A DNA stretch of 64,000 nt from a virus: IMG/VR virus record IMGVR_UViG_3300021197_001279, positions 1 through 64,000 of that record. One strand, written 5' to 3'. The position numbers and the translations under genes were made by a program. Under the pieces are notes generated by a model that was given only the letters and a program-made list of their open reading frames with translations, searched no databases and was not told the origin of the DNA. Positions 8,692 to 36,499 of the stretch are shown piece after piece. Numbering within the stretch: position 1 is the stretch's first letter; every line of letters starts with the position of its first letter.

Positions 8692-8698
8692 TAAATAG
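8692..8698 (-). promoter_or_regulatory. CTATTTA late-promoter element
   Basis: The coding strand reads GACTATTTAATAA, 21 bases before the GTG of the tape-measure operon's first gene. It is one of a set of such elements in intergenic gaps. Confidence 0.65.
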
Positions 8699-8726
8699 TC
8701 AAAAATTAGAAATGCCCATGGAAGTC

Positions 8727-10896: not shown

Positions 10897-13788
10897 TTAC
10901 TCGAATTCTACACCGCTTCTAGAGACTACAAAATCAATAGCAATGAATTCAATAGCACGAGCAGGCTTGATGAAGATCTGAGCATACATAATGTTCTGAT
11001 CAATCAGGTCAGGTGTGGTTGTGGTCTCGTCAAGAACAATCTTGAACTCGGTGATACCAAAGTTAGACTTAACGCTTTGTAGGATTCTACTTGAGCGCGA
11101 CTTGAAGCGGTTAAAGGTTACGTCAACTGCTTGATCAAACAAGAGGTCTCGAGCCACAGCACCGATGCGCTTCTTGATGAATACCATCAATCGACGAACG
11201 TTGATGCGATCAAGAGCAGACTGCTGAAGCTGAAGTGTCTTTTGTCCGAACACAACAATACCACCGGCAGCAGTAAAGTTAGCAATTGGATTAACTCTTG
11301 CAGCATAAAGATCATCACGAAGACCTTTAGTTAGACTACGCCAAGTATTAGTTACGCGAGGTCCATTTGGCCCACCAAGAGGATTCAAACCACCACGATT
11401 AAACCCAGCAGGGGCAAACCATGGCTGAGAGACAGCCTCAGATGCAGCTAGTGCACCAATACCGGCAACCGATGGTGGGACTAGAAGTAATGGATTGGCA
11501 CTTGATACTGTGTCTGCAAGTCTAACCCAAGGATAGTAAGCAGTGGCATAAGAATTATCAAGGAATCTTGCTGATAAATTGTTTACAGTGCTTTCAACAG
11601 AACCAGCAGCAGCAACACCGTTGCCACCATCATGCCCTGGAACATAACCTCCTTCAAGGTCAACAATTGCAAGGTGATCAGCACGTTCTGCAGCGTTTGA
11701 TAAAACACGGTCAGTAATAGCGGTATCAGTAACACCAGGTACAGAAAGAAGATCAAACGTAACATACTCTGAATTAGAAACTATATCAAGTGCCTTCTCA
11801 AGAGTCGCTCTTTCGTAAGATGTGGTCTCATCAGAACCAATGTTTGTATTGTCGAATGGATCAGCCTCAAAGATGTCAAGACCATCACGCCCACCAAGAA
11901 GTGGAGCAACAAACTGTCTTACACCACCATCGGTCGAACTAGTCAAAAGAGTTGATATGGTATTACCAGGAGTTCCGGCAACAGAGGTTCCGGCAGCAAA
12001 TGATCCTTCTTCAAAGAAAAATCTTCTTTGATTAGTTTCTTTTCTAAGATCATCAAGAGTGAACGTGAATGAGTATTCCATTCCATCAGGAGGTGTTCCC
12101 CCTTCGCTTAACTGTTGAGTAAACCCACCAGGCAATTCTCTAACAATATCAAAGTAACTATCATCTTGTCCAGATTCAGTTGAAGTTCTTCTATGATCGA
12201 TACCAAAGAGATAATCTTTATCATAAGGGGCAGAATTTCTTGCAAAGCCTGCATTAGTTGTTTGCAAAGCAGGGAACCTGAATGAAGCAGATAAGGCTGG
12301 AGCAGTAATAGGAGCAAAGAAAACATCACTAGCATCAACCGCAGCCAATTTAAACCCTGGCATGTTCACACCACCAGTTACAAAACTATGAGTTTCTGGG
12401 GTTCCACCTACAGCAGCAGCACCGGTACCAAGCTTAGCAACATAAGTCGAACCAGAGATTAGTGTAAGCCCTAGTGGTCGCAGCGGACCAGCATATCCAA
12501 CAGGTAGTGCCTGAGCATTATTAAGAAGGCCGTTTTCAACTACTGATGCCATTTCAATTCTAATATAATCTGATCTGTTTTCATAAAGACCTAGGGTGTT
12601 GAATCTCTTCTCGACAGAATCCCATTCAAGTCTTTCGTTACCAATTACTTTAGCGACATAGTTTGCATCACCTGGCCTAAGGGTACAGCCAGTGAAAGCT
12701 TCTACTCTCTGTCCGGCATTATTAATAACGTTAACGGTGAAAGATGGTGGGTTTTCTGCATCTCCGATGTTAAGGTCTGCAATTGCAATCTTGTATTTCT
12801 TTTGAATCTCAACGCCTTCACTTAAAGCAGCAAATCTAAATAGTTGTTGTTGATTTGGCTTCTGATCAATAAACCAAGGAGTTCTTGCAACTTGTGCGTT
12901 ACCTCGATTGTATCCCCAGTTATTATTTGCATTTGAACCAGACTGAAGTGCGAGGATAATACCATATTGCTGACCAGGGTTATTGTTGAAATCATTTACA
13001 TGCTCGACAACTGATTGCTCGAAAGTCTCACCCAGGAAATAATCAACATCGGTCAAACCAAAGTTTGCATTGTTATTAATTTTTTGTGGGTTTGTGTTCA
13101 GTGCCTTTCTGATGTAGTTACTGGTATCTGTTGGGTCAAAATTTACAACAAAGTTTTCAGAACCAACCCTAACCTTAAAGGTACTAGCCTTTGCAGCCGT
13201 AGAGATAGACTCTACAAACTGACCAGAAGCAGTTACAGCAGTCGCAGGAGCGGTTACAGTGTCAACGGGAGTACCACAAAGCTGAACACCAGTGGCATCT
13301 CCATCAATATAAAACACAGCAGCTAACGACCCTGTGTGATTACCGGTCATTGTACCAGATGGGCTAATAAAAAGTCCATAAGCAGACTTGTTACTAGCTG
13401 GTGTTGCGCTTGGTCCATCAGCGATCTTCCAACCTGCTTCTCCAGCATCAGTGCTGGCATCCGGTGACTTTTCACCTAGAAGTCTAACAAATTTAACTGG
13501 TCCAATATCAGCAGATAGATAAGCCTGTGCAGCATACATTGCGTACATTGGAGTTGCGTAGTTTCCTCCCCTCCAAGGATCTGATGAAGGGCTTTGACCA
13601 GAAACAGGGTCCCCAAAGGTTTCTCTAAAATCTGCAAAGTTTCTAACAATAACAGGCTGCATCGCTGGTCCCATCGGTGCTCTACCAATAAGAAGGAGTC
13701 CATCTTCTTCGGGAGTCGGGGTAATCTGCGATTGATCAACTTCTCTCAGTTGAACACCAGGTGAAATAAAATCAAATCTTCTAGGCAT
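10897..13788 (-). CDS. Contractile tail sheath protein (gp18-like)
   Basis: 963 residues. The N-terminus RRFDFISPGVQLREVDQSQ and the C-terminal block (SSRILQSVKSNFGITEFKIVLDE, split over residues ~900-930, then IFIKPARAIEFIAIDFVVSR) are typical of T4-type sheath proteins, where these ends form the inter-subunit beta mesh that transmits contraction. The middle (about residues 130-650) is much expanded with Asn/Ser/Thr-rich domains; T4 gp18 is 659 aa. The extra domains probably sit on the outside of the sheath and vary between phages (inference). Tube genes follow at once; a CTATTTA element lies 33 bases upstream. Confidence 0.93.
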   Translation of the reverse strand: MPRRFDFISPGVQLREVDQSQITPTPEEDGLLLIGRAPMGPAMQPVIVRNFADFRETFGDPVSGQSPSSDPWRGGNYATPMYAMYAAQAYLSADIGPVKFVRLLGEKSPDASTDAGEAGWKIADGPSATPASNKSAYGLFISPSGTMTGNHTGSLAAVFYIDGDATGVQLCGTPVDTVTAPATAVTASGQFVESISTAAKASTFKVRVGSENFVVNFDPTDTSNYIRKALNTNPQKINNNANFGLTDVDYFLGETFEQSVVEHVNDFNNNPGQQYGIILALQSGSNANNNWGYNRGNAQVARTPWFIDQKPNQQQLFRFAALSEGVEIQKKYKIAIADLNIGDAENPPSFTVNVINNAGQRVEAFTGCTLRPGDANYVAKVIGNERLEWDSVEKRFNTLGLYENRSDYIRIEMASVVENGLLNNAQALPVGYAGPLRPLGLTLISGSTYVAKLGTGAAAVGGTPETHSFVTGGVNMPGFKLAAVDASDVFFAPITAPALSASFRFPALQTTNAGFARNSAPYDKDYLFGIDHRRTSTESGQDDSYFDIVRELPGGFTQQLSEGGTPPDGMEYSFTFTLDDLRKETNQRRFFFEEGSFAAGTSVAGTPGNTISTLLTSSTDGGVRQFVAPLLGGRDGLDIFEADPFDNTNIGSDETTSYERATLEKALDIVSNSEYVTFDLLSVPGVTDTAITDRVLSNAAERADHLAIVDLEGGYVPGHDGGNGVAAAGSVESTVNNLSARFLDNSYATAYYPWVRLADTVSSANPLLLVPPSVAGIGALAASEAVSQPWFAPAGFNRGGLNPLGGPNGPRVTNTWRSLTKGLRDDLYAARVNPIANFTAAGGIVVFGQKTLQLQQSALDRINVRRLMVFIKKRIGAVARDLLFDQAVDVTFNRFKSRSSRILQSVKSNFGITEFKIVLDETTTTPDLIDQNIMYAQIFIKPARAIEFIAIDFVVSRSGVEFE

Positions 13789-13821: not shown

Positions 13822-13828
13822 TAAATAG
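13822..13828 (-). promoter_or_regulatory. CTATTTA late-promoter element
   Basis: The coding strand reads GAAACTATTTACTTTG, 33 bases before the sheath ATG, in a 62-base gap between neck and sheath genes. Confidence 0.65.
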
Positions 13829-13850
13829 TTTCTTCAACTACGAAACGCAT

Positions 13851-15162: not shown

Positions 15163-17805
15163 TTACCCTCTTAAAATTCTTAGTTTAACTCTTCTTTTTG
15201 ATTCAGTCACTCCCTGCTCAGGCTCTGGGTCATCAAAGGAAACCTGTGATGGTGTTTGTCCGAGGTCCTGGTCGGCCTGGGCGATAACATCTGCGATGCC
15301 TAGTTTTTCAAGAGGAATGTTGTTATCAATGTAATCTACAAGATGGTCATTGATTCCCTCAAAGTAGGCTTCCTCTGCTATTGAATCAAGGTGATCTTTA
15401 ATTTCTGATTTCTTCTCAAAGTCATACTCATTAGCATACCAGCCAAGTTGGTATACAAACTGATCTTCGTCTTCGTCTTCTAATTGAAAGTAAATTCTCA
15501 TTTTGTCCACTGGAATTCTCAGTGCAACCTCACCTCCAAGTGCATCATACACAACATTTCGCACAAGACCTCTTGCAGATTCATTTGCGTATGCATGCTT
15601 AAGAAATGCAGCAATCTTGATACCTTCCTCTTCGTCTTTTTGATACTCGGTTACACCCTTGATTCTGTAACCAGAGGACATCGGTTCACCGGTTTCATCG
15701 TCATGGTACTCTTCAAAATCAATTTCAAAATCTCCATTAACATTTTTGTTCCAGAATTGGTTCTCGGCTGCTTCGCCAAAGACGTATTCGTTACCGCCAG
15801 GTAGAAGATCGTCTGCTTGAAGTGCCTTCTCGATAATCTGATGCATTGCACCACCTCGTGTTGCAAGGTGGTTAAATCCAAGCCCAACTCCATAACTCGA
15901 CCCGTCACCGGCAAAAACTTGCTCAAGTTGATACTCTATCTCTTCATACTGCCAATAACCCCCAATTATCTCAGACAAGAAATCACTATTGATATCTATC
16001 AATACTTTGTAGCCTGAAAATCTTGGGTCCTCAATGTATGTTGTTGTAACATTATCAACTAGACTTTCTCGCTGACCCAGCAATTCACCAAAGTTATCAA
16101 GTTTGCTATCGATTAGATCATTAACAGATGATGCTTCAGCGTAAGTCATGCCGGTTTCTCTTGGAAATTCAAAACGAAATTCAACAGTAGCGCCAATACT
16201 GATGTTGAAAGTGTCATCCCATCGTTCAACTTCATAATTAACATCGATGTTGGATGAAAGGCCGAGATTTTCAATTGTCTGTTGGATAATTTCTTCAACC
16301 GCTGCTTCGTTCATAAATCCTGCCTCAGCGGCTAATTCCCTCTCCATGTCATTGTCATAGTTTACTGAACCGATAAAGTTAATCTCAACGTCAGGAAATG
16401 CAATGTTAAACATTCTTGGTAAAGCATCTTTAACTCTAGCGCCCCCATCTTGGTATGAACCACCATAACGAGTAAAGGAATACATGCTAACATTATCGGA
16501 GGTTGTGAGTTCCGCCTCAGCAATGGCCTCAATCTTTTCTTTTTGTGCTTCCACTGTGGTGTTGTAAAGGTGATCCACAAGACCAGGAACTTTTTGTCCA
16601 TAAACGTTTCCTTGAGGAACAAGAAGTCTGATCGGGTTATCATCGCCGTTACTATTGTATGATACGTGCTTAATTCTCACTCTTGACACAGGAACCATAC
16701 CTTCAACGCCCCTTTCTTCGTCTGCAAAGATTTCTCCATCTCCCGCTTCTGGTAGTTCGTGTAGGTCAAGTTTCTCTCTAATCATCTCTGGGGTTATTTC
16801 TTGTCCTTCTTCTGCTCCGACAAATTCTCTAATGCTTTCTTCGGTCACAACATAGGAAATAAGACCATTACCGTGAGCCTCAGCCAAAGCACAGACGTTG
16901 TATTCGTCAAATCCCGCTGTTCCCTTACGAGAAGGTAATGAGTGACAAGAGTCTAAACCACGAAAGTCAGACATACGATAGACATCGATTGGGTGTCTGG
17001 AATAAATAATGTAGTTCTGCAACTTGTAGTTATCAATGTTTCTGGTTAGGTCATCCAATTTGCTTCCATCCAAAAGAAAGTCAGCAACTTTTTTAGCCGG
17101 TGGGGCGAGGGTTGTTTCAAAATAATTTCCATGACTTTTATTGAGTGATCCGAGTTTTGAATGGCGATAGGCTTCCGCTGCATCACTATCCCAATTATCA
17201 TAGTTTCCTTTTCCAAACAATTCCTTAAATGAAGCAATAAGTTTTGCAGCGCGTTTTGAGGCCTTTGCTATTCTTGGGATATATTCTCCCGCGACTTCCT
17301 CAAAACCTGGTCTTTCTCCATCTTCGTCTACTGTAAGTTCTCCGAGTTTGTCGGTGTATTCGTTAGCAAGGTCCCAGACACCTGTGACTCCTTCTTTCCA
17401 GTTTTCCCAGTTGTTAATAAAGGAAATTATGCGAGAGCCGATTTTTGATAACTTTAGATCAATTGTCTTTGAGACCTGTCTTCTGTTACCTTCTTTATCC
17501 TTGTATTCCTTCTCGACAACTTTAGTTGCCTTAAGAACAGGTTTTTTACCTGATTCGTCAAGATAGATAGTCCAACCGGCTCTACCGAACCACTTCTCCA
17601 AGTCGGCAAGAATACCGGTGGATTCTGTAGCACTAAAAGTTTGGGCCGTGCGATACTTACCATTGAAGAAATCATCAAACGGCAAGGCAGACGGAGGCAT
17701 CTCAAGGAGGTCTCCGAGATACTCAATCTCTTCTTCTGTGGCCTCTGTAACCTGTTGTTTTGATTCTAGGAGAAACTTTCTCCAAGTGCTGTCATTAAAC
17801 TTCAT
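15163..17805 (-). CDS. 880-residue unknown protein, candidate internal head protein
   Basis: Not recognised as a structural family. It begins MKFNDSTWRKFLLESKQ: the short amphipathic WRKFLLE followed by Ser resembles the capsid-targeting peptide of T4 internal proteins (MKTYQEFIAE), and LLE fits the L/I-x-E rule of gp21-type proteases. A second element around residues 270-320 (RHPIDVYRMSDFRGLDSCHSL, separated from YNVCALAEAHGNGLISYVV) looks like the 'MS...SCxSL' block of uncharacterised phage proteins. The C-terminal half is acidic and rich in Asp/Glu/Tyr; the last residues are basic (SKRRVKLRILRG). It lies in the neck region. A packaged effector, comparable in size to T4 Alt (682 aa), is a testable guess; a neck component is the alternative. 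Confidence 0.75.
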   Translation of the reverse strand: MKFNDSTWRKFLLESKQQVTEATEEEIEYLGDLLEMPPSALPFDDFFNGKYRTAQTFSATESTGILADLEKWFGRAGWTIYLDESGKKPVLKATKVVEKEYKDKEGNRRQVSKTIDLKLSKIGSRIISFINNWENWKEGVTGVWDLANEYTDKLGELTVDEDGERPGFEEVAGEYIPRIAKASKRAAKLIASFKELFGKGNYDNWDSDAAEAYRHSKLGSLNKSHGNYFETTLAPPAKKVADFLLDGSKLDDLTRNIDNYKLQNYIIYSRHPIDVYRMSDFRGLDSCHSLPSRKGTAGFDEYNVCALAEAHGNGLISYVVTEESIREFVGAEEGQEITPEMIREKLDLHELPEAGDGEIFADEERGVEGMVPVSRVRIKHVSYNSNGDDNPIRLLVPQGNVYGQKVPGLVDHLYNTTVEAQKEKIEAIAEAELTTSDNVSMYSFTRYGGSYQDGGARVKDALPRMFNIAFPDVEINFIGSVNYDNDMERELAAEAGFMNEAAVEEIIQQTIENLGLSSNIDVNYEVERWDDTFNISIGATVEFRFEFPRETGMTYAEASSVNDLIDSKLDNFGELLGQRESLVDNVTTTYIEDPRFSGYKVLIDINSDFLSEIIGGYWQYEEIEYQLEQVFAGDGSSYGVGLGFNHLATRGGAMHQIIEKALQADDLLPGGNEYVFGEAAENQFWNKNVNGDFEIDFEEYHDDETGEPMSSGYRIKGVTEYQKDEEEGIKIAAFLKHAYANESARGLVRNVVYDALGGEVALRIPVDKMRIYFQLEDEDEDQFVYQLGWYANEYDFEKKSEIKDHLDSIAEEAYFEGINDHLVDYIDNNIPLEKLGIADVIAQADQDLGQTPSQVSFDDPEPEQGVTESKRRVKLRILRG

Positions 17806-17809
17806 TATG

Positions 17810-19072
17810 TTATCCTACGAAAATTTTAAGTGGGGTATTGGCGACCATAGCGTTGGTATTGTCAATCATGCCTTTGTCTGTCTCGGCAAGTTTAGCGTAA
17901 AGCATCTCATCGAGTTGCTTGTTAAGTTCCTCACGAAGAGTGTTTTGTTCTTCTTTTGCTTGAGTTAAAAGTTCATTAGCATTAAGGGTTACGTTATCAC
18001 CAGGGATTGGAACAGAGTTTCCAAACTTCCCTCGGATTTGACCAAGAGTTTCTTTAGACAAAGCAAGAGAGAAACGTCTGATCCATTGCTGCCCAATTGA
18101 GTTAATGCTTTTAAAAGGAATATTCTCCATTGGTAGTGTGTTCATGTTGTTAATTCCATCGACACCAGAGTCATAAGAACCAGTTGCAAATGCATTATTA
18201 TCTTCAATAGAGAATCTAAACCAGAATTGTTCTGGTGATGTACTGTTGGGTATCGGATAAATCCTAACCTTGTTATCAGTAATCTCATAAGAGTAATGAG
18301 AAGTCCTTGTGTACAGATGATCTTCATATTGGATAGCCTGCATTTTGTTCTGCCAAACGGGAATAACCTGAAATGTAGAATCATCTGCATACTGGCCGTA
18401 TGTTTGCATATCGCCAACAACATTTAAACCACCGTAATAACCATAAAATCTCCACATTTGATGTGGACTTACGTAATACATGTTGCGTATTTTAATTCTT
18501 TTCGTTTTATCTTTTGTGTTGTCAGTAAAATCTGCGTATGGCACTCCACCAGCTGCAGCAGAAGAACTAACAATTGCCTGGAGATCGTAGTCTTGCTTGT
18601 CTACTACCATATCAAAAGATGCTGAGTAGATGGGTGTAGTTCCGCCAATACCTGATTCAGTTGAAAATTTGTCTGCTACTCTGAATGCGTAATCAAAAAC
18701 AAACTTAGGATATTTGAGAGATACCGAGTCTGTACCTGTCACGTTTCCTTTATGGTCAAAAGATCCTGTCTCGCCGCCAAGAGCGCTCCCTAAGGCATTT
18801 CTAGCCTGGTGTAGGTTAAGAATGTAGGAGTACTCTAAAACAGCCTCTTCATAGTGATTGTAGACGTTATCTGCCGTTAGTTCAATATCAAGGACATCTC
18901 CGCCCAATCTTTTGTAAGTATAAGCAACTTGTGCTGCTGCTCCTGTTACAAAGGAATCACTGGCACCATAAAAGTTGATTGCTAAAGTTGCAACCACATC
19001 ATCTGTGTTACCAGTTGAAGGTAAAATTATAGCACTTGTTGTTGATGCTGGTTTTAAAGTTGGAAATGACAT
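17810..19072 (-). CDS. Neck/portal-vertex structural protein (gp13 position)
   Basis: 420 residues from the ATG at 19070-19072, chosen over an upstream in-frame start at 19108 because GGAGG lies correctly before it and the terminator and promoter occupy the upstream bases. The C-terminal region has ALSKETLGQIRGKFG, then PIPGDNVTLNANELL and a coiled-coil-like EEQNTLREELNKQLDEM (about residues 345-395), a pattern I associate with T4-like neck/head completion proteins. It precedes gp14/gp15-like genes, so a gp13-like role is likely. It is longer than T4 gp13 (309 aa). Confidence 0.68.
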   Translation of the reverse strand: MSFPTLKPASTTSAIILPSTGNTDDVVATLAINFYGASDSFVTGAAAQVAYTYKRLGGDVLDIELTADNVYNHYEEAVLEYSYILNLHQARNALGSALGGETGSFDHKGNVTGTDSVSLKYPKFVFDYAFRVADKFSTESGIGGTTPIYSASFDMVVDKQDYDLQAIVSSSAAAGGVPYADFTDNTKDKTKRIKIRNMYYVSPHQMWRFYGYYGGLNVVGDMQTYGQYADDSTFQVIPVWQNKMQAIQYEDHLYTRTSHYSYEITDNKVRIYPIPNSTSPEQFWFRFSIEDNNAFATGSYDSGVDGINNMNTLPMENIPFKSINSIGQQWIRRFSLALSKETLGQIRGKFGNSVPIPGDNVTLNANELLTQAKEEQNTLREELNKQLDEMLYAKLAETDKGMIDNTNAMVANTPLKIFVG

Positions 19073-19095: not shown

Positions 19096-19102
19096 TAAAT
19101 AG
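19096..19102 (-). promoter_or_regulatory. CTATTTA late-promoter element
   Basis: The coding strand reads GAAACTATTTAGTG, 23 bases before the ATG of the neck gene and just after a terminator, so it re-initiates transcription for the neck-sheath unit. Confidence 0.7.
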
Positions 19103-19120
19103 TTTCAAGATAAAAGAAAA

Positions 19121-19149
19121 ACCCCTGCCACAAAAGTTGCAGCAGAGGT
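19121..19149 (-). terminator. Intrinsic terminator after the H1-like gene
   Basis: On the minus strand an ACCTCTGC/GCAGGGGT stem (8 pairs, one G-T) closes a 13-base loop and is followed by TTTTTCTTTT. Confidence 0.75.
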
Positions 19150-19173: not shown

Positions 19174-19362
19174 TTAATCGGAGGAGTCAGATCCTTTGGA
19201 CGGCTTTTTCGTTTTAGCAGCGGCAGCTTTTCTTGCTTTCTTTTTTGCTTTTGCTTGAGCAGCACTTGACTTTGCCTTTGGAGCAGGTTTTGGCGCTGGG
19301 GCGGTCTCAATATTTGGGGTAGCTGCTCTTCTGTTTTTTCTTCTAGCACTTCTATGTGGCAT
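19174..19362 (-). CDS. Lysine/alanine-rich histone H1-like basic protein
   Basis: 62 residues containing 13 Lys, 6 Arg and 16 Ala. A basic RSARRKNRR start, a proline-spaced PAPKPAPKAK hinge, and an AKAKKKARKAAAAKTKKPSKG tract split across residues 37-57 resemble the C-terminal tail of histone H1 and bacterial H1-like proteins. These tails neutralise and condense DNA. It has its own GGAG ribosome site, a CTATTTA element 20 bases upstream, and terminators on both sides, so it is a one-gene late unit next to the capsid gene. A packaged DNA-condensing protein or a capsid-lining protein is inferred. An alternative 84-residue frame overlapping here lacks a ribosome site. Confidence 0.8.
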   Translation of the reverse strand: MPHRSARRKNRRAATPNIETAPAPKPAPKAKSSAAQAKAKKKARKAAAAKTKKPSKGSDSSD

Positions 19363-19382
19363 TTTAATTCTCCATTTACATA

Positions 19383-19389
19383 TAAATAG
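19383..19389 (-). promoter_or_regulatory. CTATTTA late-promoter element
   Basis: The coding strand reads TTTATAACTATTTATATG, 20 bases before the ATG of the H1-like gene. A TATTTATA just upstream adds a second similar box. Confidence 0.7.
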
Positions 19390-19400
19390 TTATAAATAAC

Positions 19401-19426
19401 AAAAGTCCCAAATTAATGGGACTTTT
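19401..19426 (-). terminator. Intrinsic terminator after the decoration-protein gene
   Basis: A perfect AAAAGTCCC/GGGACTTTT inverted repeat with an 8-base loop. It can work in either direction because A and T runs flank both arms. Confidence 0.8.
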
Positions 19427-19454
19427 GCCTGATTACGGTTAATTAATCTTAGGT

Positions 19455-20018
19455 TTATCCACCAAACAGATCGTATCCGTAAAGACGAAGGATGAACTTA
19501 CCAGCACCATAAGTACCAGCGGTAGATCCGGTGGTAACCATGTACAGGTATTTACCATCTACATCTGCATCAAGTTCTGCTGAAGAAACAACACCGACTG
19601 ATTGGTTAGCAGCAGCGATGATCTCAACTGCGTTCTTATTTGTCAAGTCTCCAGATGCAGAAACAGCTGACCCGTACCAAAGACCGATTGCATCTTCACC
19701 AGTTGTTGGAGTTTCAACACAAACAAGTTCCACTTCAGTAACGACCCCATAAGTTGGGTCGAGTAATGCAATTTGAGCGCCATCGGTAGTGACCTGCCCA
19801 AGTACCTTAGCGATACCGTTTGCATTACCAGCAGTGCTAACAGATCTTGCTACTCCCGCACCAAGGTCAATTTGAATGTCGGTTGTATACAATGAAGCAT
19901 CTCTAGTTCTTGACTGTTGAATGATTGAAGCACTCATAGCATTTCCAGCTGTCTGTGCTGCAGTTTCTCCGGCTTGGTTGATATTTGCCAACCTTCCTCT
20001 ACTTAATCTTCTTGCCAT
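19455..20018 (-). CDS. Candidate capsid decoration/structural protein downstream of MCP
   Basis: 187 residues. A basic start MARRLSRGRLANINQAG leads to a small beta-rich, Gly/Ala/Thr/Val body (LYTTDIQIDLGAGVARSV, YLYMVTTGSTAGTYGAGKFILRLYGYDLF). No enzyme motif or membrane segment. The position immediately after the major capsid gene, in its own unit between two terminators, suits an abundant outer-capsid or vertex protein; this is inference. AAGGAG lies at ideal spacing before the ATG. A ~130-base leader separates it from its CTATTTA element. Confidence 0.65.
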   Translation of the reverse strand: MARRLSRGRLANINQAGETAAQTAGNAMSASIIQQSRTRDASLYTTDIQIDLGAGVARSVSTAGNANGIAKVLGQVTTDGAQIALLDPTYGVVTEVELVCVETPTTGEDAIGLWYGSAVSASGDLTNKNAVEIIAAANQSVGVVSSAELDADVDGKYLYMVTTGSTAGTYGAGKFILRLYGYDLFGG

Positions 20019-20150: not shown

Positions 20151-20157
20151 TAAATAG
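20151..20157 (-). promoter_or_regulatory. CTATTTA late-promoter element
   Basis: The coding strand reads GAGAACTATTTAAAGC, directly after the MCP terminator, 132 bases before the next start codon. Confidence 0.6.
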
Positions 20158-20175
20158 TTCTCAAAGAAAGAAAAA

Positions 20176-20201
20176 CCCCCAATCGCAAAAGCGATCAGGG
20201 G
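20176..20201 (-). terminator. Intrinsic terminator after the major capsid gene
   Basis: On the minus strand CCCC-T-GATCGC, loop TTTT, GCGATT-GGGG, then GTTTTTCTTTC. GC-rich stem with one bulge and one wobble pair. Confidence 0.8.
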
Positions 20202-20230
20202 CCGTTCAGGAAGAACTAACTAATCAAGGA

Positions 20231-22048
20231 TTAGGTGTATTCTTCACCAAGAAGTCCACGAACGACAACAATACCGTACATGTCCGGACGAACCATCTTC
20301 TTAGCATAACGAGTCATTACGCCCTTACGAGGGACGAAGTCTTCTGGCCCAAAGATGGTAGGTGTAGTTTGCAGAGGCACATAAGGTGCATATACATAAC
20401 CGCTTTCAAGGAAAGAAGAACCTCTACGCCCAACAAGAATAACTGCTCGTGGGAAATAAGGATCAACGATTACGTCAAACTTACGGCTCAAAGAACCAAC
20501 GTTAACAGCGCCAATGTCGCCTTTGTCAGCATCAGCAGTAACGTTAGCACGGAATCCAGCAGTGAATTCAAGAACGTTAGCAACTTCAGGAGAACAAACT
20601 ACGAAGTTAGCACCACCACGAAGGGTTTTTCTGTGGATTTGAGCAGATACATCATTGATAGTTTCAATGAGGGTCTCATACCATTCAGAAACAGTTCCAG
20701 TAAAGTCTGGAGCAGCTTTGTTAGCACCAATCTCAGCACCAGTCTCACGATTAAGGAAGAGTCCTGGAGAACGAGACCAGTAGAAGGTACCAGCTTTTGC
20801 ACCGTTAACAAGGTCAGCAAGAATCTCACGATCAATTTCAAGAGCAATTTGCTCAGAAAGGATAGAAGTCAACTCAACCTCGGCATCCAAGTTGTGGTAA
20901 GCATTCAAGTCTTGTCCCAATTCTGGGGTCCACTTGGCCTTCAACTTCTTGGTTTGCGCTGTGATTGCGATACTGTCTACCTTGATGTTGATCTCTGGAA
21001 TGTCAGAACTGTTCTCAAGAGCAAACAGATCTCCAACAAGAGCACCAGGAGAGGCAGCTACATTATCATACTGATCCTTAACTGGGAAGGTAAATTCAGC
21101 AGCAGTAAATCCAGCGTTCAGTGCAGTTGCTGCCTGGTTGGCTGCAGATGCTTCAGGGATTGTGTATACCAATCTGATAGAATCACTAGTGGCATCAGCT
21201 GGTGTGTTATCAGCATCTGCTGCTACAACACGATCAGATAGACGACGAATTTGAGTAGCAGTGTTAGCTGTTATAGCAGTAACCGCAGTGTTAAGACCGG
21301 TACCGGTACCTATAAAAGCAGAGAGGTTGTTAAAGTCTGCATCACCTTCGTTTGAAACGATGTTTGCTGGATCAATGTCCAAAACAACAACTCTTAGGCT
21401 GCTATCTGTACTAGCCAGAAGATCTGGATCGTACTTGATTCTTTTCTTGTTAGCATCAGAAACAGCGCCATCAAGCAAGAAAATCAAAGCAGTGTTCTCA
21501 GCATTAGCTGACAAAACAGCATTCAAACTTCCACTTGGAGAAGCATATGCATAACCAGTAGCACCATCACGAAGTGGTCCACTGAATCCACCCTTGGTGG
21601 TAGAATCAACAAGATTAACACCTTGCTGAATGTCCTTACCAACTCTGTCAGTACCGTAGATAGACTGAGCATCAGTGTTACCCATACGAGGTGATCCACC
21701 AATTTCGTTAACTCCAAAAGTGAAGTCAAGGAAGAAGATGAGTCCAGAAGGGAGGCTCATCGGCTGAACGCTAACAAGATCGTTAGCAATAAGTCCGGCG
21801 AATACACGACGAACGATTGGGAAAGCAACAGCAGCGAAACCTTCAACATCACCACCAGCCATGGTAGATGATTCACGAAGAAGTTCTTTTGCTTGGTTTT
21901 CCAAGAGACGAGCCATGTTGTTCTTGTCATGGTCGTTTTGAAGGCCTTCAAGTAAACCAGTAGATTCCCACTTAGAAAGAAGAGCAGCGCCCTCCTTCTT
22001 CATGTCACGGCTCACTATACCTTCAGTCAATTTTGATACAATAGACAT
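20231..22048 (-). CDS. Major capsid protein (T4 gp23-like)
   Basis: 605 residues. The N-terminal third carries the T4 gp23 signature region around residues 78-110 (PIVRRVFAGLIANDLVSVQP, then MSLPSGLIFFLDFTFG). The C-terminus has AQIHRKTLRGGANFVV (about 480) and YVYAPYVPLQTT...GVMTRYAKKMVRPDMYG (about 555-590), as in gp23/HK97-fold capsid proteins. Residues 1-65 are helical and probably removed by the prohead protease (T4 cuts after residue 65). The central insertion (about 120-330) is Asn/Asp/Ala-rich. The order protease...scaffold-MCP is partly T4-like. AAGGAG precedes the ATG; no promoter element lies in the short gap after the scaffold gene, so it is transcribed with it. Confidence 0.93.
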   Translation of the reverse strand: MSIVSKLTEGIVSRDMKKEGAALLSKWESTGLLEGLQNDHDKNNMARLLENQAKELLRESSTMAGGDVEGFAAVAFPIVRRVFAGLIANDLVSVQPMSLPSGLIFFLDFTFGVNEIGGSPRMGNTDAQSIYGTDRVGKDIQQGVNLVDSTTKGGFSGPLRDGATGYAYASPSGSLNAVLSANAENTALIFLLDGAVSDANKKRIKYDPDLLASTDSSLRVVVLDIDPANIVSNEGDADFNNLSAFIGTGTGLNTAVTAITANTATQIRRLSDRVVAADADNTPADATSDSIRLVYTIPEASAANQAATALNAGFTAAEFTFPVKDQYDNVAASPGALVGDLFALENSSDIPEINIKVDSIAITAQTKKLKAKWTPELGQDLNAYHNLDAEVELTSILSEQIALEIDREILADLVNGAKAGTFYWSRSPGLFLNRETGAEIGANKAAPDFTGTVSEWYETLIETINDVSAQIHRKTLRGGANFVVCSPEVANVLEFTAGFRANVTADADKGDIGAVNVGSLSRKFDVIVDPYFPRAVILVGRRGSSFLESGYVYAPYVPLQTTPTIFGPEDFVPRKGVMTRYAKKMVRPDMYGIVVVRGLLGEEYT

Positions 22049-22069: not shown

Positions 22070-23323
22070 TTATTTAATGCCTGCGAGTTTTTGCATCTTT
22101 TCCATAAATGGATCAGCGCTTTTGTTCTCGCTTAAGTTTTGTCTCGAATTAAGCATAGCCGAAAGATTCGCTCTTCGGTTGACTGACTCGCTTAGTGATT
22201 GTGGACCTCTCTTTTTGGAGTTAGATCCCACTGTTGCTTTGAGTGTCTCATGAAGTTGCTTTGCTTCTTTTGGAGACTCCGCTGCGGCAATGGCTTCGAC
22301 AATTTTTTCTTTTTGTCGCTCATTCAAGGAGGCATCGCTTAAAGTGCGGTTTTTGTAAATTAACTTTGCGTTTGATAGCAAAGTTGCTTCAAGTTGTTCT
22401 TGAAGTCTGTATATCACGTTTTCAAGTTTCTCATTTTGAGAAGCAAGTACGGAAACTGTTTCGTGAAGGTCAGAGACTACACCAGGGTTTTCTGTAAGGG
22501 AGTCATCTTCCTCTTCTTCTAATTCGTCTTTATCACTGTGAGCATCATGTGCTTCTTGCTTTGCATGTTCATATTCTAAAGTGGCTTCATTTGTTTGAAA
22601 CGTTCCATCCTTATCTTCTCCCAAGTCAACAGTGATTTTTTCTTCTAGTACTTCATCTTCACCGAGAAGGTCAAGTAATTCTTGTAATTGAAGATCCATG
22701 TCGTCTTTTTCTGCATCTTCTGTGTCCACGGTATCATCAGTGTCGGACAAAAGGCTGTCAAGGTTACCCAGATCATCAGAACCAAATTCAGCAGCAACAT
22801 CATCACGAGGAAGTGCATCTTCTAATGGCGCATCATCCATAACATTCATTGCTTTCTCAAGAGCATCAAGGTCAATACTAACCATTCCATCGCCAAGGTC
22901 TTCAACATCAAGTGAAAACTCAACAGATTGATCAGCAGACATAGATGGATTACCAGCAAAAGGTGCTTCAATTTCACCAGCAGGTGCACCAGCATCCATT
23001 CCCATCTCTTCTTCTTGCAAGATGTCTTCTTCGTTTAGTTCTTGAAGATCCATCTCATTAACAAGATAAGGCTTCTCGCCTTCGGCTTGAACAAGATACT
23101 GTCCTTCTTGATTGAGGTCTTCGATGATCTCAACTATTTTTTCTTCGTGTCTTCTTTTAGACCCACAACGGGATTCCGCCACGGGTTCCCCTTCAAGCAT
23201 GGACTCTACGGCCTCTTTGATGTGTGGAGCATATTTTTCTATGATAGCCTGCTCGGCGTTTTTGAGTGCTGCTTCGCGCAAAGCGGCAGCATCAACAATG
23301 GCTTGTTCTAACATGCTAGACAT
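22070..23323 (-). CDS. Prohead scaffold/core protein (gp22 position)
   Basis: 417 residues, strongly acidic, with predicted long helices: residues 85-300 are dominated by Asp/Glu (for example DSLLSDTDDTVDTEDAEKDD), and 300-380 form a leucine-heptad coiled coil (ETVSVLASQNEKLENVIYRL). The end, FMEKMQKLAGIK, resembles scaffold C-termini that contact the shell. Scaffolds guide shell assembly and are degraded by the prohead protease. It directly precedes the MCP gene, as gp22 precedes gp23. T4 gp22 is 269 aa, so this is enlarged. GGAG lies 8 bases before the ATG. Confidence 0.85.
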   Translation of the reverse strand: MSSMLEQAIVDAAALREAALKNAEQAIIEKYAPHIKEAVESMLEGEPVAESRCGSKRRHEEKIVEIIEDLNQEGQYLVQAEGEKPYLVNEMDLQELNEEDILQEEEMGMDAGAPAGEIEAPFAGNPSMSADQSVEFSLDVEDLGDGMVSIDLDALEKAMNVMDDAPLEDALPRDDVAAEFGSDDLGNLDSLLSDTDDTVDTEDAEKDDMDLQLQELLDLLGEDEVLEEKITVDLGEDKDGTFQTNEATLEYEHAKQEAHDAHSDKDELEEEEDDSLTENPGVVSDLHETVSVLASQNEKLENVIYRLQEQLEATLLSNAKLIYKNRTLSDASLNERQKEKIVEAIAAAESPKEAKQLHETLKATVGSNSKKRGPQSLSESVNRRANLSAMLNSRQNLSENKSADPFMEKMQKLAGIK

Positions 23324-23356: not shown

Positions 23357-23363
23357 TAAATAG
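23357..23363 (-). promoter_or_regulatory. CTATTTA late-promoter element
   Basis: The coding strand reads GAACACTATTTAATAAAG, 33 bases before the scaffold ATG; it would drive scaffold plus MCP. Confidence 0.7.
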
Positions 23364-23402
23364 TGTTCTCGATAAGAAAAGGAAGTTTATTCGCCGTAGT
23401 GG

Positions 23403-27096: not shown

Positions 27097-27103
27097 TAAA
27101 TAG
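27097..27103 (-). promoter_or_regulatory. CTATTTA late-promoter element
   Basis: The coding strand reads TTTACTATTTATTAGG, 73 bases before the ATG of the repetitive fibre gene, in a 102-base gap. Confidence 0.6.
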
Positions 27104-27125
27104 TAAATCTTTGTGACAAAGTCTA

Positions 27126-31200: not shown

Positions 31201-33212
31201 GTAAATGTTTTATTGTTTGCATCTGTAGCCGGATCAGCAACTGAAAGATTGATAAAACCAGATCCGTTTGCATTTAGGGCAATACCAGTACCTGAACCGG
31301 CGCTGCCTGTGCCTAAATCAACTGCTAGATTAATTGAATGAACGGAAGCACCGTTAACAAACAATTGTAGCGAACCAACCTCTGCATTACCAAAAGCATC
31401 TGCTGGGTGGTTCTCATTGGAACCTTCCATATCCTGAGCAACATTATAATTAACCGTCCCGGTAATCTCTTGATCTTTCTGATAAACGCCGAGTCTAAGA
31501 TTCGCACCAGATGATGCGATTGTAACTTGGTCGTTCACATCCAGTTCAGTAAAACCGGCAGTTGCTGCTTGCTGTGTATATCCTGTTGGGTCATTTGTCG
31601 TGTCAAAAGAAATCTTCATGGCATGACCAGCAGGAACGTTGTAATCAAGTTGGCTTACATCTGGTGCCGCATTTGGTACTAGAACAGAGAACAACTCATT
31701 AAAACGGTCTATCGGTGTACCAACAGGGGTCTCAGTTGTAAAGTCTAGGAAGAGTCCATCATTGTAATTTCCATCCTCGGCTGCACCAATAGTTGCGCCA
31801 CCAGAACCAAAATCAGCCCAATCACCACCAGAATTCTTAAATTGTAAGGTCCCAGAGTTATCTCTAAATCCATAGCCGCTAGCAGTGTCTGTGTCTCCAA
31901 ATGAAATGTAGCCACTACCTTGCACTCGTAAATTGTTTTTGGCAGACAAATACTTACCAGAAACCTCAAGGTCATCTGTTGTTGAATTGAATCCAAGTTT
32001 TACGTCTTGTGAATCTCCAAAGTTTATTTCTCTATCGTCTCCAACAAACACATCTCCCCAACGAAGGCTTGGTGTTCCGAGGGAAAAGTTGTCTGTTGGT
32101 ATTGCAGTTGCATCAGCATTATTTGCGGCGATTGATTTAGGAACAACGTTTCCGAAAACAACAAGACCTCTTTGTTGATCAAAATTGTTTTTATAAACTG
32201 TTCCTTGAAAATCACCAAGGACAGCAATTTCTTGAGTCCTGTCTGAGCCGCTAACAACACCATTGGAGGCGGATAATGGAGCAACTGTCTTTAGGGCAAA
32301 TCTAAAAAACGATTGTTTGGCTGTCGTATTCTCAGTTCTTTTAAACTGAATAGATCCTACTTCTTCCGCAACAGATGGAGATTCGTTAGTGGGCAGCTTA
32401 AAGCTTATCTCTCCTGCATGTAGTTGATTCGAGGTAGAACCAGAAGAAAATGTCCCGCCAAGTGTGTTAGCCAAAAAGATCTGTGGTCTTTGAGTAGCGG
32501 TAGCATTTCTATTTTCCATTTCAATTCTTGGTAAACAAACGCCAACATTATTAGAGTTCATCTTCAATGAACCCATATTTATTTCCATACCATCAGCAGG
32601 GCCTGAGCCGGTGATTGTTACGGCACCAGTTACACGAAGGTTTCCTTTAAATTGGCCACCCTTAATATCAAAGGTTTCGCCCGAACTTCCAATAGATCTC
32701 AAAGGGGCAAAGATTTTAATTGGTGATGCCCCAAAGATGCCGCCCTTAAGGGCAACCGGTGCTTCGAACACAGCAGTGCCAGAAACAGTCAGTGCAGGAT
32801 CTACGGCTCTATTGAATGTAGCGGCATCTGGAATAGAAGAGTCGGCAGCAACAGAGGCTGTAGCGCTATATTCTGTGCTTCCTTCTTTGTAAATTAAATC
32901 TGAATTGTTAGATGATGTTACTCTTATTTGCCCTGTGAATATGTGAGTATCATCAGTAGTGTTTCCAATTTGTGTTGAGCCGGTTTGTGATAAAATTATG
33001 GTCTCGTTAACATTAAGGGTATCAATGTTAAGAGTACCACTTAAATCCATGTCTCCTTTGATAAGAAGACTACCCGTCAAAACTACTGAGGAGCCATCGT
33101 AAACAAAGCTTTGGCTACCAGAGAGATTACTGGCCGAGTCCGATGTTTGGACTGCATGTGTGCCACCTCTACCAAGCGCACCTGAAACATATGCCCAACC
33201 GAATTCTGCCAT
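28233..33212 (-). CDS. Giant adhesin/tail fibre with internal duplication
   Basis: 1659 residues. The first ~450 are a beta-helix-like stalk (GSQSFVYDGSSVVLTGSLLI, LSGTLNIDTLNVNETIIL). Two large domains follow that are copies of each other: (D)QRNGWNYAQVKHVIG near residue 687 and DQRNGWNYARVIHRIGG near 1227, each preceded by a GSL.(L/I).VNG(A/S).(V/L)H(S/T)I segment and followed by TTN(F/Y)(L/V)(E/D)W(L/V)ND. The unit is about 540 residues. The domain content fits a receptor-binding fibre or large decoration. The ATG overlaps the stop of the preceding gene (TAATG). It is the largest gene of the fibre block. Confidence 0.78.
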   Translation of the reverse strand: MAEFGWAYVSGALGRGGTHAVQTSDSASNLSGSQSFVYDGSSVVLTGSLLIKGDMDLSGTLNIDTLNVNETIILSQTGSTQIGNTTDDTHIFTGQIRVTSSNNSDLIYKEGSTEYSATASVAADSSIPDAATFNRAVDPALTVSGTAVFEAPVALKGGIFGASPIKIFAPLRSIGSSGETFDIKGGQFKGNLRVTGAVTITGSGPADGMEINMGSLKMNSNNVGVCLPRIEMENRNATATQRPQIFLANTLGGTFSSGSTSNQLHAGEISFKLPTNESPSVAEEVGSIQFKRTENTTAKQSFFRFALKTVAPLSASNGVVSGSDRTQEIAVLGDFQGTVYKNNFDQQRGLVVFGNVVPKSIAANNADATAIPTDNFSLGTPSLRWGDVFVGDDREINFGDSQDVKLGFNSTTDDLEVSGKYLSAKNNLRVQGSGYISFGDTDTASGYGFRDNSGTLQFKNSGGDWADFGSGGATIGAAEDGNYNDGLFLDFTTETPVGTPIDRFNELFSVLVPNAAPDVSQLDYNVPAGHAMKISFDTTNDPTGYTQQAATAGFTELDVNDQVTIASSGANLRLGVYQKDQEITGTVNYNVAQDMEGSNENHPADAFGNAEVGSLQLFVNGASVHSINLAVDLGTGSAGSGTGIALNANGSGFINLSVADPATDANNKTFTIFKHRTSKVVIDTRDQRNGWNYAQVKHVIGASTKTTNFLEWLNDGEASGSAITFTNPRISSLGLSGDKYLSGVKYHTSAAPVYNAQVSNFYRNTYPTGSVITFSSTNGSATAQAPPAIGGSEDYTKQILLTASFTNSTTTYYGTSFTNEVTVTHPFKSQTGVGPATGSGILLDNTTNNTTNLSERFTSEAFRLPSGSFANQSAVTSATWHSGSHMTGSDHANGLLVFAQKVQSPKNTSGTGITNGDFTGPGNAYGGQPDYSSVSGTRTYFRKVQNTSGATIRDLKITTTKSSRINNDSLTTNNVQMFVKFPDKTGFLDVSQNFAFGSYAEGNGALINGADDNSNTSETVSSNAVHCVTFGTQSVADDDYVVVKMIADAGWTGTFSQIDFQLGASDVSAPTEAPTLDDIDADDQGTTSKLSFGASNDVTGYSNATRSTIGSSNIDSNGVYSFSGDQRGVITSLRVINGNLNEDVSANSPSYTTNAFKNAYTGSLVIEVNGSELHTIQLASSVSTINSQNSNGTGFVANALSFSETTDGIPDYNKNYRTGTYTIGTTDQRNGWNYARVIHRIGGSDTTTNYVDWVNDASSSVAMTSSSAGLDNFDHLDRYYQSGVGYFASRPSASFKYIASEVYSNVYSNSSTAVSYGTTTNSSVTKININGDGVSNSEVSAATSALPALNNSANCEAEDIQVTGSVLFDNLTSIKEGLSLFTAYDVSVASTVDHPIKTNLTTTTYSKTAFMVYSGSVGSTNLNTNEYFNTETYRIVSGNYANQAAVTNSGNTWDSSNSVNDNENYAAYCDGMVTVNGYAISPLKIGNAGDTRNVANGGTLQAPVNNPNYSSLTKATRTFYRYFRNQTGVSSATPTLQLYGDATIVAKSGAFYTGTPGANKFINVEIKIPSDPSFTGLDDTSTAWGDAVKPYSAGVQPSTDGVGVYGGGGSGLDQTVDANGNSFQLQLQQRQIRNNQYVIVKITAHKDWTGYLSRINISY

Positions 33213-34333
33213 TATTCATCGACCCCAGACCCTGATAGTTCATACATTCTAGCAGCAGGAATCTCTGTTAGTGCTGCTTGAAGTTGATAATCTATAGCAG
33301 AACCAGAGGCGGATAAAAATACTTGCTTGCACTTTACTGGTATTGTTACTTCATCTCCGTTACCTGCCAGTGGCCAGAAGTGAAGATTTCGATAAACGTT
33401 GTTAGTCAAAAAGAAAGGGCCAATTACAGGATTTAACTCATCTGACCCTCCAAAGTTTGTTAGATCATTTAGGTCATCATTATTACCACTTGAGTCTTTA
33501 ATGATTGTATTTGCTCCATCAATGACATCATTTTCATTATCGCCAAATTGATACCATAGTTTTAAGTTGGCGCCCTCTATGTTTCTAGGATCTGCTTTCC
33601 CACCGGTATTGTAAAGCGACGTAACGTTAGCCGCACTTAACTCCGCACTCCATACTGCTACTTCATCAATACCAACTACTTTATCTAAATCAATTCCATT
33701 AAATAGAACGAACTTGGTTGAACCAGTGAGAGGGTTCCCAGTGGCCCCAGTTGTTGTCGCGACAGCGCTACCATTCCTGTAAACATTAATGGCGCCACCC
33801 GCAGCACCATCAAAGGCCACTACAAAGTGATTCCAGCCATTTGTGAATTGGTTTGCATCAGAATCTGAGAAACTCTTATATGTTCCACCGGCTGTATCCA
33901 CTGATCTGATCTGAAACCTTCCGTTAAGACCGGAGGGGTTTCTTGGTCTAAATTCAATTGCATTATCTCCAGCTTCGTTTTGCAAAGCAATGAAGTTTTC
34001 ATTAGCATTGAAAGTGCCATTACCATCACTACCGCTAATCCAAAAGGCAAATGATGCTCCGCTTCCGTTTGGAATATCGAAAACATTATCAGAAGTTCTG
34101 AAATCCATAGTCCCTTTGGCCGCCAATGCATTGTTACTTAAAGAGCCGAAATGAACACGCAGTTCACCAGAGCCACTGGTTTTCTTAACCTTAATCTCTT
34201 TTGTGACTTGATAAAAAGATATTTTTTCTTCATTCTCATCAGAAATCTGAGATCCGGTTATAAATGGAATACCAGAAACTAAGTAAGAGCCAGCGTTTTG
34301 AAGACCAGTGGTGTATTTAAATTTTTCACTCAT
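33212..34333 (-). CDS. Virion protein of a three-member family with inserted LamG/ConA domain
   Basis: 373 residues. The N-terminal ~70 (KFKYTTGLQNAGSYLVSGIPF) and C-terminal ~50 residues (VKCKQVFLSASGS, then ALTEIPAARMYELSGSG) match the two small neighbours. In between lies a ~230-residue insertion with a typical LamG/concanavalin A-like plan: FAFWISG, GWNHFVVAFDGAAGGAINVYRNG, and KVVGIDEVAVWSAELS. Such domains bind sugars. The insertion turns a small surface protein into a likely carbohydrate-binding one (inference). GAGGGGGACC precedes the ATG. Confidence 0.78.
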   Translation of the reverse strand: MSEKFKYTTGLQNAGSYLVSGIPFITGSQISDENEEKISFYQVTKEIKVKKTSGSGELRVHFGSLSNNALAAKGTMDFRTSDNVFDIPNGSGASFAFWISGSDGNGTFNANENFIALQNEAGDNAIEFRPRNPSGLNGRFQIRSVDTAGGTYKSFSDSDANQFTNGWNHFVVAFDGAAGGAINVYRNGSAVATTTGATGNPLTGSTKFVLFNGIDLDKVVGIDEVAVWSAELSAANVTSLYNTGGKADPRNIEGANLKLWYQFGDNENDVIDGANTIIKDSSGNNDDLNDLTNFGGSDELNPVIGPFFLTNNVYRNLHFWPLAGNGDEVTIPVKCKQVFLSASGSAIDYQLQAALTEIPAARMYELSGSGVDE

Positions 34334-34343
34334 TTGGTCCCCC

Positions 34344-34757
34344 TCACGTATTTATGCCAGAACCAGTAAGTTCATACATGCGCCCTACTGGAATTTGGGT
34401 TTGTGAGGCAAATACTGAAAATGTAATTGATCCGCCACTGGCATTGGAGAAGTAAATTTCTTTACATTTTAGATCTAAAGTAAGACTAGTGTTATTTGGA
34501 ACGTCGTAGTAATGCTTGTTCGCAACAACATTTGCAGTAGAACTAGTTGAGACAAGGTGCACCCTAAGATCTCTATTACTAGTGGTTTCTGTGTTTGTTA
34601 TTACTACCTGCTTTGTTACATGTAAAAACTCAAGTTCTTGCTCACTAACTCCACTACCGGCGGTATGACCTAGTGTGTAAGTCTTAAGGTAAGGGTAGCC
34701 TGAGGAGACATAACAACCTGCTGCCTGCAGGCCTGGTGTATAGTGAAAGACTGACAT
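34344..34757 (-). CDS. Small virion surface protein, family member 2
   Basis: 137 residues. N-terminus SVFHYTPGLQAAGCYVSSGYPYLK, middle RDLRVHLVSTSS, C-terminus DLKCKEIYFSNASGG then QIPVGRMYELTGSGI. It shares this frame with the genes on both sides and probably has a compact beta-sandwich. The start overlaps the previous stop (TAATG). Role unknown; probable decoration or fibre-cap protein because the family is embedded in the adhesin block. Confidence 0.7.
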   Translation of the reverse strand: MSVFHYTPGLQAAGCYVSSGYPYLKTYTLGHTAGSGVSEQELEFLHVTKQVVITNTETTSNRDLRVHLVSTSSTANVVANKHYYDVPNNTSLTLDLKCKEIYFSNASGGSITFSVFASQTQIPVGRMYELTGSGINT

Positions 34758-35167
34758 TATGAAGCAACTCCTACTACTCCGTCAAGAGTAAACATTCTTT
34801 GGTCGGGTATCTCGGTTAACTCAGCATACACTTGAGCCTCAGAGGTTCCAGAGCCAGTCCAGATAAATATCTCTTTACATTTAACGTTAAAGCTTATTTC
34901 TTTACCAGCATTTACAATAAAATAATTGGCGTTATCATTTGCACCGTGAGTGTAGCCATGTTCGCCATCTGCTCTTGGCGCAAAGCCAACCCTAATTGCA
35001 GTTGAACCATCGGTGTTTTTCACTAAAATTGACTTAGAAACTTGAGGAAAAACAAACCTCTCGCTAGTACTAGCATTAATCCCAGTAGAACCAGAAAGGT
35101 AAGGACGACCAGCAACTTGATAAGAGCCAACGTTATGAAGACCAGCGGTATAATAAAAATTTGACAT
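34757..35167 (-). CDS. Small virion surface protein, family member 1
   Basis: 136 residues. N-terminus SNFYYTAGLHNVGSYQVAGRPYLSG, middle TAIRVGFAPRADGEHGY, C-terminus NVKCKEIFIWTGSG then AELTEIPDQRMFTLDG. It lies 20 bases downstream of the bS21 gene and is the first member of the triplet. No catalytic or membrane features. Confidence 0.7.
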   Translation of the reverse strand: MSNFYYTAGLHNVGSYQVAGRPYLSGSTGINASTSERFVFPQVSKSILVKNTDGSTAIRVGFAPRADGEHGYTHGANDNANYFIVNAGKEISFNVKCKEIFIWTGSGTSEAQVYAELTEIPDQRMFTLDGVVGVAS

Positions 35168-35839: not shown

Positions 35840-36457
35840 TTAATCCCCTAGAATTCTTCTAAATAGCCCATCGATGTTGTTCTCTTTTCTCTCCTTAAGG
35901 CGAGATGAAACAACCTCAGACATCCCTCTACCAGGATAAACATAGGCATCTGGAGTGGAAGGTTCGGACACAATGTCAAAACAAATCAATTGGAAGTCAG
36001 CCTCTACAACTGTCTTTCCCATGCTTTCTCGGACAGATCCAAGTCCACGAGAAGAAATACCAAGTTTAACCCCGGCATTCACTAGGTCTTTAAGAATTCT
36101 ACCTGAAGGAGTGTCGAGGACTTTAATCTTACCCATAACATCCTTTCCTTCCCACCAAACTTGAGTTATAATGTGAGAAACATTCTTAAGGTTAACAACT
36201 GAATCGTCTGGGTGATCTAGTTCACCGCATGCGCGATTGTCTTTGACTACCCGACTATAGTTGTCCATTTCTCTCTTAAGAACCTCGTAAGGGTACACAC
36301 GGCCATTTCCGTTCTGCTTGTCTGCAGTTTGAATACGACCAGAAAGAAACATTGTTCCATCGTTCATAGCCTCTCTCTTCTCGGCCTCTGTTAAGAGATC
36401 AAGACAGACACCATCTTTGCAAAGTTCATAAAATTCTTGTAAAAGTTCTTTTCCCAT
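35840..36457 (-). CDS. Prohead core protease (T4 gp21-like)
   Basis: 205 residues from the ATG at 36455-36457; GAGGGAAGG is placed correctly, so the longer frame (GTG at 36493) is rejected. It has RVYPYEVL, CGELDHPDDS with the catalytic His (about residue 82), QVWWEGKDVMGKIKVLD, and GISSRGLGSV with the catalytic Ser (about 135-136), then PSTPDAYVYPG. This matches the T4 gp21/herpes-type serine protease that cleaves scaffold, internal proteins and the capsid N-terminus after L/I-x-E. It is preceded by a terminator and lies 12 kb from the scaffold gene, unlike in T4. Confidence 0.93.
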   Translation of the reverse strand: MGKELLQEFYELCKDGVCLDLLTEAEKREAMNDGTMFLSGRIQTADKQNGNGRVYPYEVLKREMDNYSRVVKDNRACGELDHPDDSVVNLKNVSHIITQVWWEGKDVMGKIKVLDTPSGRILKDLVNAGVKLGISSRGLGSVRESMGKTVVEADFQLICFDIVSEPSTPDAYVYPGRGMSEVVSSRLKERKENNIDGLFRRILGD

Positions 36458-36480
36458 ACCTTCCCTCAAAATAAAAAATA

Positions 36481-36499
36481 GAGTGGGCGCCACCCACTC
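36481..36499 (-). terminator. Intrinsic terminator before the protease gene
   Basis: On the minus strand GAGTGGG/CCCACTC encloses a five-base loop and is followed by TATTTTTTATTTT. It overlaps the upstream region of the protease. Confidence 0.78.

Follow-up and report, generated by a model that had tools for sequence, protein, structure and literature searches.

A small basic protein with a conserved charge layout, encoded between the capsid and neck genes of a T4-like phage

Why does a phage give a 62-residue polycation its own transcription unit within the head module, and is so short an open reading frame (ORF), built of low-complexity sequence, a gene at all? We addressed these questions in a 64,000-base window, the whole stretch of DNA analyzed here, which is part of an 86,004-base IMG/VR virus record.

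A separate transcription unit in the head module

The head and tail module on the minus strand of the window is T4-like. The major capsid protein (MCP) encoded there is 44-46% identical to its best cultured matches, in Flavobacterium immuto phages, Microcystis phage Mel-JY01 and Rhodothermus phage RM378, and we provisionally regard the uncultured phage as far-T4-type. The relevant features are as follows.

42232..40649, minus strand: terminase
40645..38711, minus strand: portal protein gp20
36493..35840, minus strand: head maturation protease gp21
22070..23323, minus strand: prohead scaffold candidate at the gp22 position, directly preceding gp23, net charge -64
20231..22048, minus strand: MCP gp23 (PF07068, E 4e-74; phrog_138, E 3e-72)
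20174..20203, minus strand: intrinsic terminator 3' of the MCP gene (13 pairs, dG -21.9)
20151..20158, minus strand: promoter-like ACTATTTA of the 187-aa gene
19455..20018, minus strand: 187-aa protein in its own unit, Arg-rich N-terminus MARRLSRGRL
19398..19429, minus strand: intrinsic terminator upstream of the basic gene, closing the 187-aa gene (13 pairs, dG -18.8)
19383..19390, minus strand: promoter-like ACTATTTA of the basic gene, 20 nt upstream of the ATG
19370..19373, minus strand: ribosome binding site GGAG, 7 nt before the ATG
19174..19362, minus strand: basic protein gene, 62 aa, MPHRSARRKNRRAATPNIETAPAPKPAPKAKSSAAQAKAKKKARKAAAAKTKKPSKGSDSSD
19121..19149, minus strand: intrinsic terminator 3' of the basic gene (13 pairs, then TTTTCTTTT, dG -18.2)
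19096..19103, minus strand: promoter-like ACTATTTA of the neck gene
17810..19072, minus strand: neck or head-completion-like protein, 420 aa (phrog_211 'head-tail adaptor Ad2', E 1.3e-9, C-terminal part)
17805..15163, minus strand: 880-aa protein, between the neck gene and the tail sheath
13788..10897, minus strand: tail sheath

The protein at the gp22 position matched no family in a PHROG profile search. It contains a 60-residue stretch of charge -22, and gp22 is strongly acidic in every relative measured. Homologues of the neck protein in immuto phages carry a head completion annotation, and the neck gene is the conserved anchor downstream of the basic gene. A relative of the neck gene (54% over 244 residues) also occurs in locus L181, a candidate division WOR-3 MAG contig (CP070664.1), where it may reflect a prophage, a hint of the host or a misassembly. 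Between gp21 and fibre-like genes, three adjacent proteins of 373, 137 and 136 aa (33212..35167, minus strand) share the start M...YT.GL.N.GSY.VSG.P and, from this likeness, appear to be a small tandem paralogue family.

On the minus strand, genes and signals follow one another as MCP gene, terminator, ACTATTTA, 187-aa gene, terminator, ACTATTTA, GGAG, basic gene, terminator, ACTATTTA, neck gene. The sequence-only reading had put the basic gene beside the capsid gene; it does lie in the head module, but the 187-aa gene (20018..19455) intervenes before the MCP. A strict scan of this strand found only five terminators in the whole 64-kb window, three of which separate the MCP, 187-aa, basic and neck genes. 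The motif ACTATTTA is present in 14 copies in the window, compared to 2.9 expected, and none of 100 shuffles reached that number. Twelve of the copies are on the coding strand, and several stand 20-40 nt before structural genes, with a few within genes; further minus-strand copies lie at 8692-8699, 13822-13829, 23357-23364 and 27097-27104. Among relatives, ACTA[TAG]TTA is found 14-35 nt upstream of the basic-gene ATG in 70 of 100, a count that takes in one-base variants of ACTATTTA, against a background of 0.024 per 60 nt. The T4 late promoter TATAAATA was found in none of 100 regions upstream of basic genes, and matches in a sigma-70 promoter scan were no more frequent than in shuffles, with none at the basic gene. 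Because of its position and enrichment, we read ACTATTTA as a candidate late promoter core of this phage group, distinct from T4's TATAAATA. Shine-Dalgarno-like sites precede the basic ORF in nearly all relatives. Every element of the single-gene unit proposed earlier, two terminators, a promoter-like motif of its own and a ribosome site, can thus be assigned coordinates, and the motif and terminators support the separate late expression that was suggested with it, which would presumably be strong.

Conservation of the gene and of its charge layout

The earlier count of 13 Lys, 6 Arg and 16 Ala in 62 residues is exact; with 7 Pro, 2 Asp and 1 Glu, the protein has a net charge of +16, a pI of 11.8 and a mass of 6.5 kDa. 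An Arg-rich N-terminal block (residues 4-12) is followed by a Pro/Ala hinge (15-29), a Lys/Ala C-terminal block (33-54) and an SDSSD end, so that the first 15 residues carry +6 and the last 25 carry +8. AlphaFold models two low-confidence helices (4-14 and 34-50) flanking the hinge, with a mean pLDDT of 64.

The ORF is coding and under purifying selection. Its nearest relative, in locus L086, is 90% identical, and between the two pN/pS is 0.23, synonymous changes making up 8 of 14 although synonymous sites account for 24% of the total (p = 0.007). For close pairs within the family pN/pS ranges from 0.07 to 0.67 (pooled 0.33), and the protein is also kept in L082, L087/L088 and L159. Searches with the MCP and neck proteins yielded 157 IMG/VR loci; the window's own locus and a further one bring the total to 159. 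The 117 with both genes in order made up the complete interval set. A short K/R-rich ORF occupies the MCP-neck interval in 99 of these 117 loci (about 85%), which bears out the expectation that related genomes would carry the gene next to the MCP, and its stop almost always falls 28-134 bases ahead of the neck gene. The basic ORF is missing from this interval in the other 18, half of which have no room for it, with 94-131 bases between MCP and neck. We judged the ORF choices in L062 and L081 to be false and dropped them from the family set. When all non-overlapping ORFs of the 159 loci were scanned, 86 of the 114 plus-strand ORFs with both ends basic fell in the MCP-neck interval, indicating that the pattern is specific to it; most of the others belong to truncated loci, where they immediately precede the neck gene, or are bS21-like proteins further off. 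A spurious or decaying ORF of low-complexity repeats might be suspected from its shortness and composition and from the 11-38% identity of most of the family to the window protein, but that explanation is contradicted by the purifying selection, the ribosome site, promoter-like motif and terminators and the position conserved in 99 of 117 loci, and is almost certainly wrong.

What the family keeps is a charge blueprint, two basic ends around a neutral or acidic spacer, rather than a sequence. The gene and this layout are conserved while most of the sequence varies, so that the refuting case named earlier, a gene that is not conserved, does not apply. Across 92 distinct members (median length 95.5 residues, range 38-142), charge per residue averages +0.39 in the first 15 residues, -0.03 in the middle and +0.34 in the last 25, and in 98% of them the middle is less basic than either end. 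Net charge has a median of +13 (range -2 to +26), and 82 of the 92 have adjacent K/R pairs among the first nine residues. Pro/Ala, Thr/Pro/Glu, EAKA-type helical repeats and EEVVE-type acidic coils serve as interchangeable spacers. The window protein, a short family form with a Pro/Ala hinge, belongs among these two-ended basic head-module proteins as defined by basic ends, a neutral or acidic spacer and location between gp23 and neck, although its own spacer is mildly basic, unlike the family pattern.

The ends themselves look modular. In 16 members [ED]NS[VQIL] stands at residues 27-31 irrespective of total length, and this constant place marks a fixed N-terminal module. The C-terminus TKKPSK[GE]SDSSD is common to the window, L086, L082, L088 and L083, whose N-termini are of three unrelated kinds; L130 and L131 are alike except for the N-terminus, which L131 shares with L003 while the rest differs. 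These patterns indicate that phages trade both N- and C-terminal modules with one another. In four loci (L005:4134-4547, L178:3348-3761, L179:2370-2780 and L180:324-686) a Rho_N/SAP-like segment replaces the basic C-terminal tail. It scores 16.4 bits against PF07498, below the cut-off of 24.9, and resembles several phage nucleic-acid families (best 1e-6), making it the best hint in the sequences that the C-terminus may bind nucleic acid.

Relation to known proteins

The basic family is described by neither Pfam nor PHROG and is absent from the cultured relatives examined. A Pfam search with the window protein gave no matches up to E 1, and 66 members (the window protein and 65 relatives) had no consistent match in Pfam or PHROGs: 10 PHROGs and 6 Pfam families, coiled-coil or Rho_N-like, were each hit by only 1-2 of the 66. 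Searching 50,697 phage records by tblastn with the window protein and a 103-aa relative returned nothing, a negative weakened by the BLAST low-complexity filter. For this reason we read the neighborhoods of cultured relatives directly, and found no such ORF beside the MCP or neck gene in Mel-JY01, the immuto phages, RM378, P-HM1, C48C1, AG-345-F15 or LR756508. A literature search turned up no paper describing the family.

The comparison with histone H1 made in the sequence-only reading holds for composition and fails for membership. Like the C-terminal tail of the linker histone, the protein is rich in Lys, Ala and Pro and disordered, but it lacks the globular winged-helix domain, for which Pfam gave no match, and has an extra strongly basic N-terminal block. 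None of the 66 members matched a histone family at E 0.001, and no HU/IHF or other known bacterial nucleoid protein domain was matched in the Pfam and PHROG searches. Apart from the basic family, the short K/R-rich proteins that recur in these loci are all phage bS21 (rpsU) homologues, which differ in location, most often lying several kb ahead of the MCP, and in their motif KRF.KK..K..I.E..R...Y.KPS, which is missing from the basic family. Such bS21-like genes occur in the head modules of relatives (L016:1085-1330, L046:2081-2323, L053:2450-2695, L054:8460-8702, L068:8582-8827 and others), and one bS21 is annotated in Mel-JY01 (L161:5146-5373).

The T4 internal proteins IPI, IPII and IPIII and the prohead core proteins are, like the basic protein, small, late and encoded in the head module. 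Sets of T4 internal proteins vary widely and have in common only a short N-terminal targeting sequence (PMC3012670; PMC7697877), and in the basic family too, short N-terminal modules recur ahead of variable bodies. However, the T4 proteins have a capsid targeting sequence of roughly 10 residues that is cut off by the head protease. They gave no sequence matches to the basic family, none of whose members contains the targeting-like motif W..FL.E. The sequence [LI]xE appears somewhere in 67 of 92 members (50 expected by shuffling), with the first one within the N-terminal 20 residues in 17, whereas the window protein has no LxE/IxE site. We therefore reject a protease-cleaved T4-type internal protein for the window protein. 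By defining features the basic protein appears to be neither a histone H1 nor a T4 internal protein, although it may work like either. Two other window proteins, of 880 aa (17805..15163, minus strand) and 169 aa (37389..36880, minus strand), share an N-terminal [ST]WRKFL[LN]E[SN] that resembles a T4-type capsid-targeting sequence with an LxE site; relatives carry similar N-termini, MKLLxENWxKFLxE..., and the two are candidate ejected head proteins.

Possible roles in the phage head

From its sequence and setting, the basic protein probably acts in the head by binding DNA or scaffold, and the earlier interpretation along these lines is plausible; DNA condensation, capsid lining and action on the nucleoid, the roles first offered, remain inferences. 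The best explanation as a whole, to which we tentatively assign a probability of about 0.45, is a late two-ended polycation that works in the phage head. A small, mostly disordered protein would be produced late and abundantly from a transcript of its own and would reside in the head. The acidic gp22, at net charge -64, and DNA are the partners that a +16 peptide would most obviously have. Its N-terminal basic block would dock on an acidic partner, either the gp22 scaffold or the inner shell, and its Lys/Ala/Pro tail would bind and partly neutralize DNA, so that packing might be eased or DNA tethered to the shell. The single-gene late unit, the gp23-neck position, the charge blueprint, the purifying selection and the acidic gp22 support this reading, and the Rho_N-like tails of L005, L178, L179 and L180 are consistent with a nucleic-acid-binding C-terminus. 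Against it stand the lack of a T4-type targeting motif in the family and of an LxE/IxE site in the window protein. Because 18 of 117 relatives do without it, the gene is not essential to this head type, and since some members are near neutral (net -2 to +2), bulk charge neutralization is not the role in all of them.

It is possible, though unlikely, that the protein serves assembly only, as a co-scaffold or chaperone on the acidic gp22 core, and is absent from the finished head. The strong negative charge of gp22 with its concentrated acidic stretch, late expression and the hypervariable polyampholyte spacers would suit such a factor. However, the idea that relatives without the basic gene have a less acidic scaffold proved wrong, as their gp22 is equally acidic, and the window protein offers no protease site for removal at maturation. 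We consider it quite unlikely that the protein is instead an intracellular, non-virion factor coating host or replicating phage DNA (or RNA). The resemblance to the H1 tail and the Rho_N-like C-terminus of the L005 relatives would fit, but the late-type promoter motif and the fixed place between gp23 and neck do not, and T4 MotB, like other known factors acting on the host nucleoid, is made from an early gene (PMC7827196).

A further proposal turns on the neighboring 187-aa protein, which matched no family in PHROG and Pfam searches. AlphaFold predicts a beta-sandwich (pLDDT 75.6, pTM 0.73), and in Foldseek the model matches uncharacterized viral proteins at E 1e-13, with a weak match at E 2e-3 to a solved capsid chain, that of Ralstonia phage GP4; it is a plausible candidate for a capsid decoration protein. 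Over 50 loci, the more alike two basic proteins are in their first 25 residues, the more alike are their upstream 187-aa-type proteins (r 0.49, or 0.45 with neck similarity taken out; 0 of 500 permutations). MCP and neck similarities are correlated with each other (r 0.57), and the pattern suggests that the N-terminal module and the upstream gene move as a cassette. We treat this co-exchange as a lead, since permutation leaves shared ancestry in. It may reflect a functional pairing, in which the N-terminal module anchors or cements the 187-aa protein on the shell, and both genes are single-gene late units; it may be simple recombination between a terminator and the repeat-rich spacer. Many loci have the basic gene without such an upstream gene, and in L052 and L074 a gene of the upstream type is present but the basic gene is not, leaving the partnership only a slim chance. 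A more elaborate form of the head reading, which we also think quite improbable, would make the protein a modular shell-to-genome tether, with an N-terminal docking peptide that is swapped together with the beta-sandwich protein, a variable spacer and a polycationic or Rho_N-like tail that would bind nucleic acid. Conserved by charge layout and not by sequence, it would be a functional counterpart of core protein V of the unrelated adenovirus.

The charge of packed DNA in tailed phages is usually accounted for without genome-lining proteins. The surprise here is a conserved charge blueprint carried by a modular, hypervariable sequence, in a gene with its own late transcript. Because the charge pattern is kept and almost no sequence is, such a gene would escape homology searches and low-complexity filters; it would largely escape tryptic proteomics as well, since the window protein, whose tryptic peptides include AATPNIETAPAPKPAPK, yields a single peptide longer than 7 residues. 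If the protein does work in the head, T4-like phages may use polycationic proteins to pack their genomes more often than databases suggest, and the swapping of modules would provide a natural mutagenesis series for polyampholyte function.
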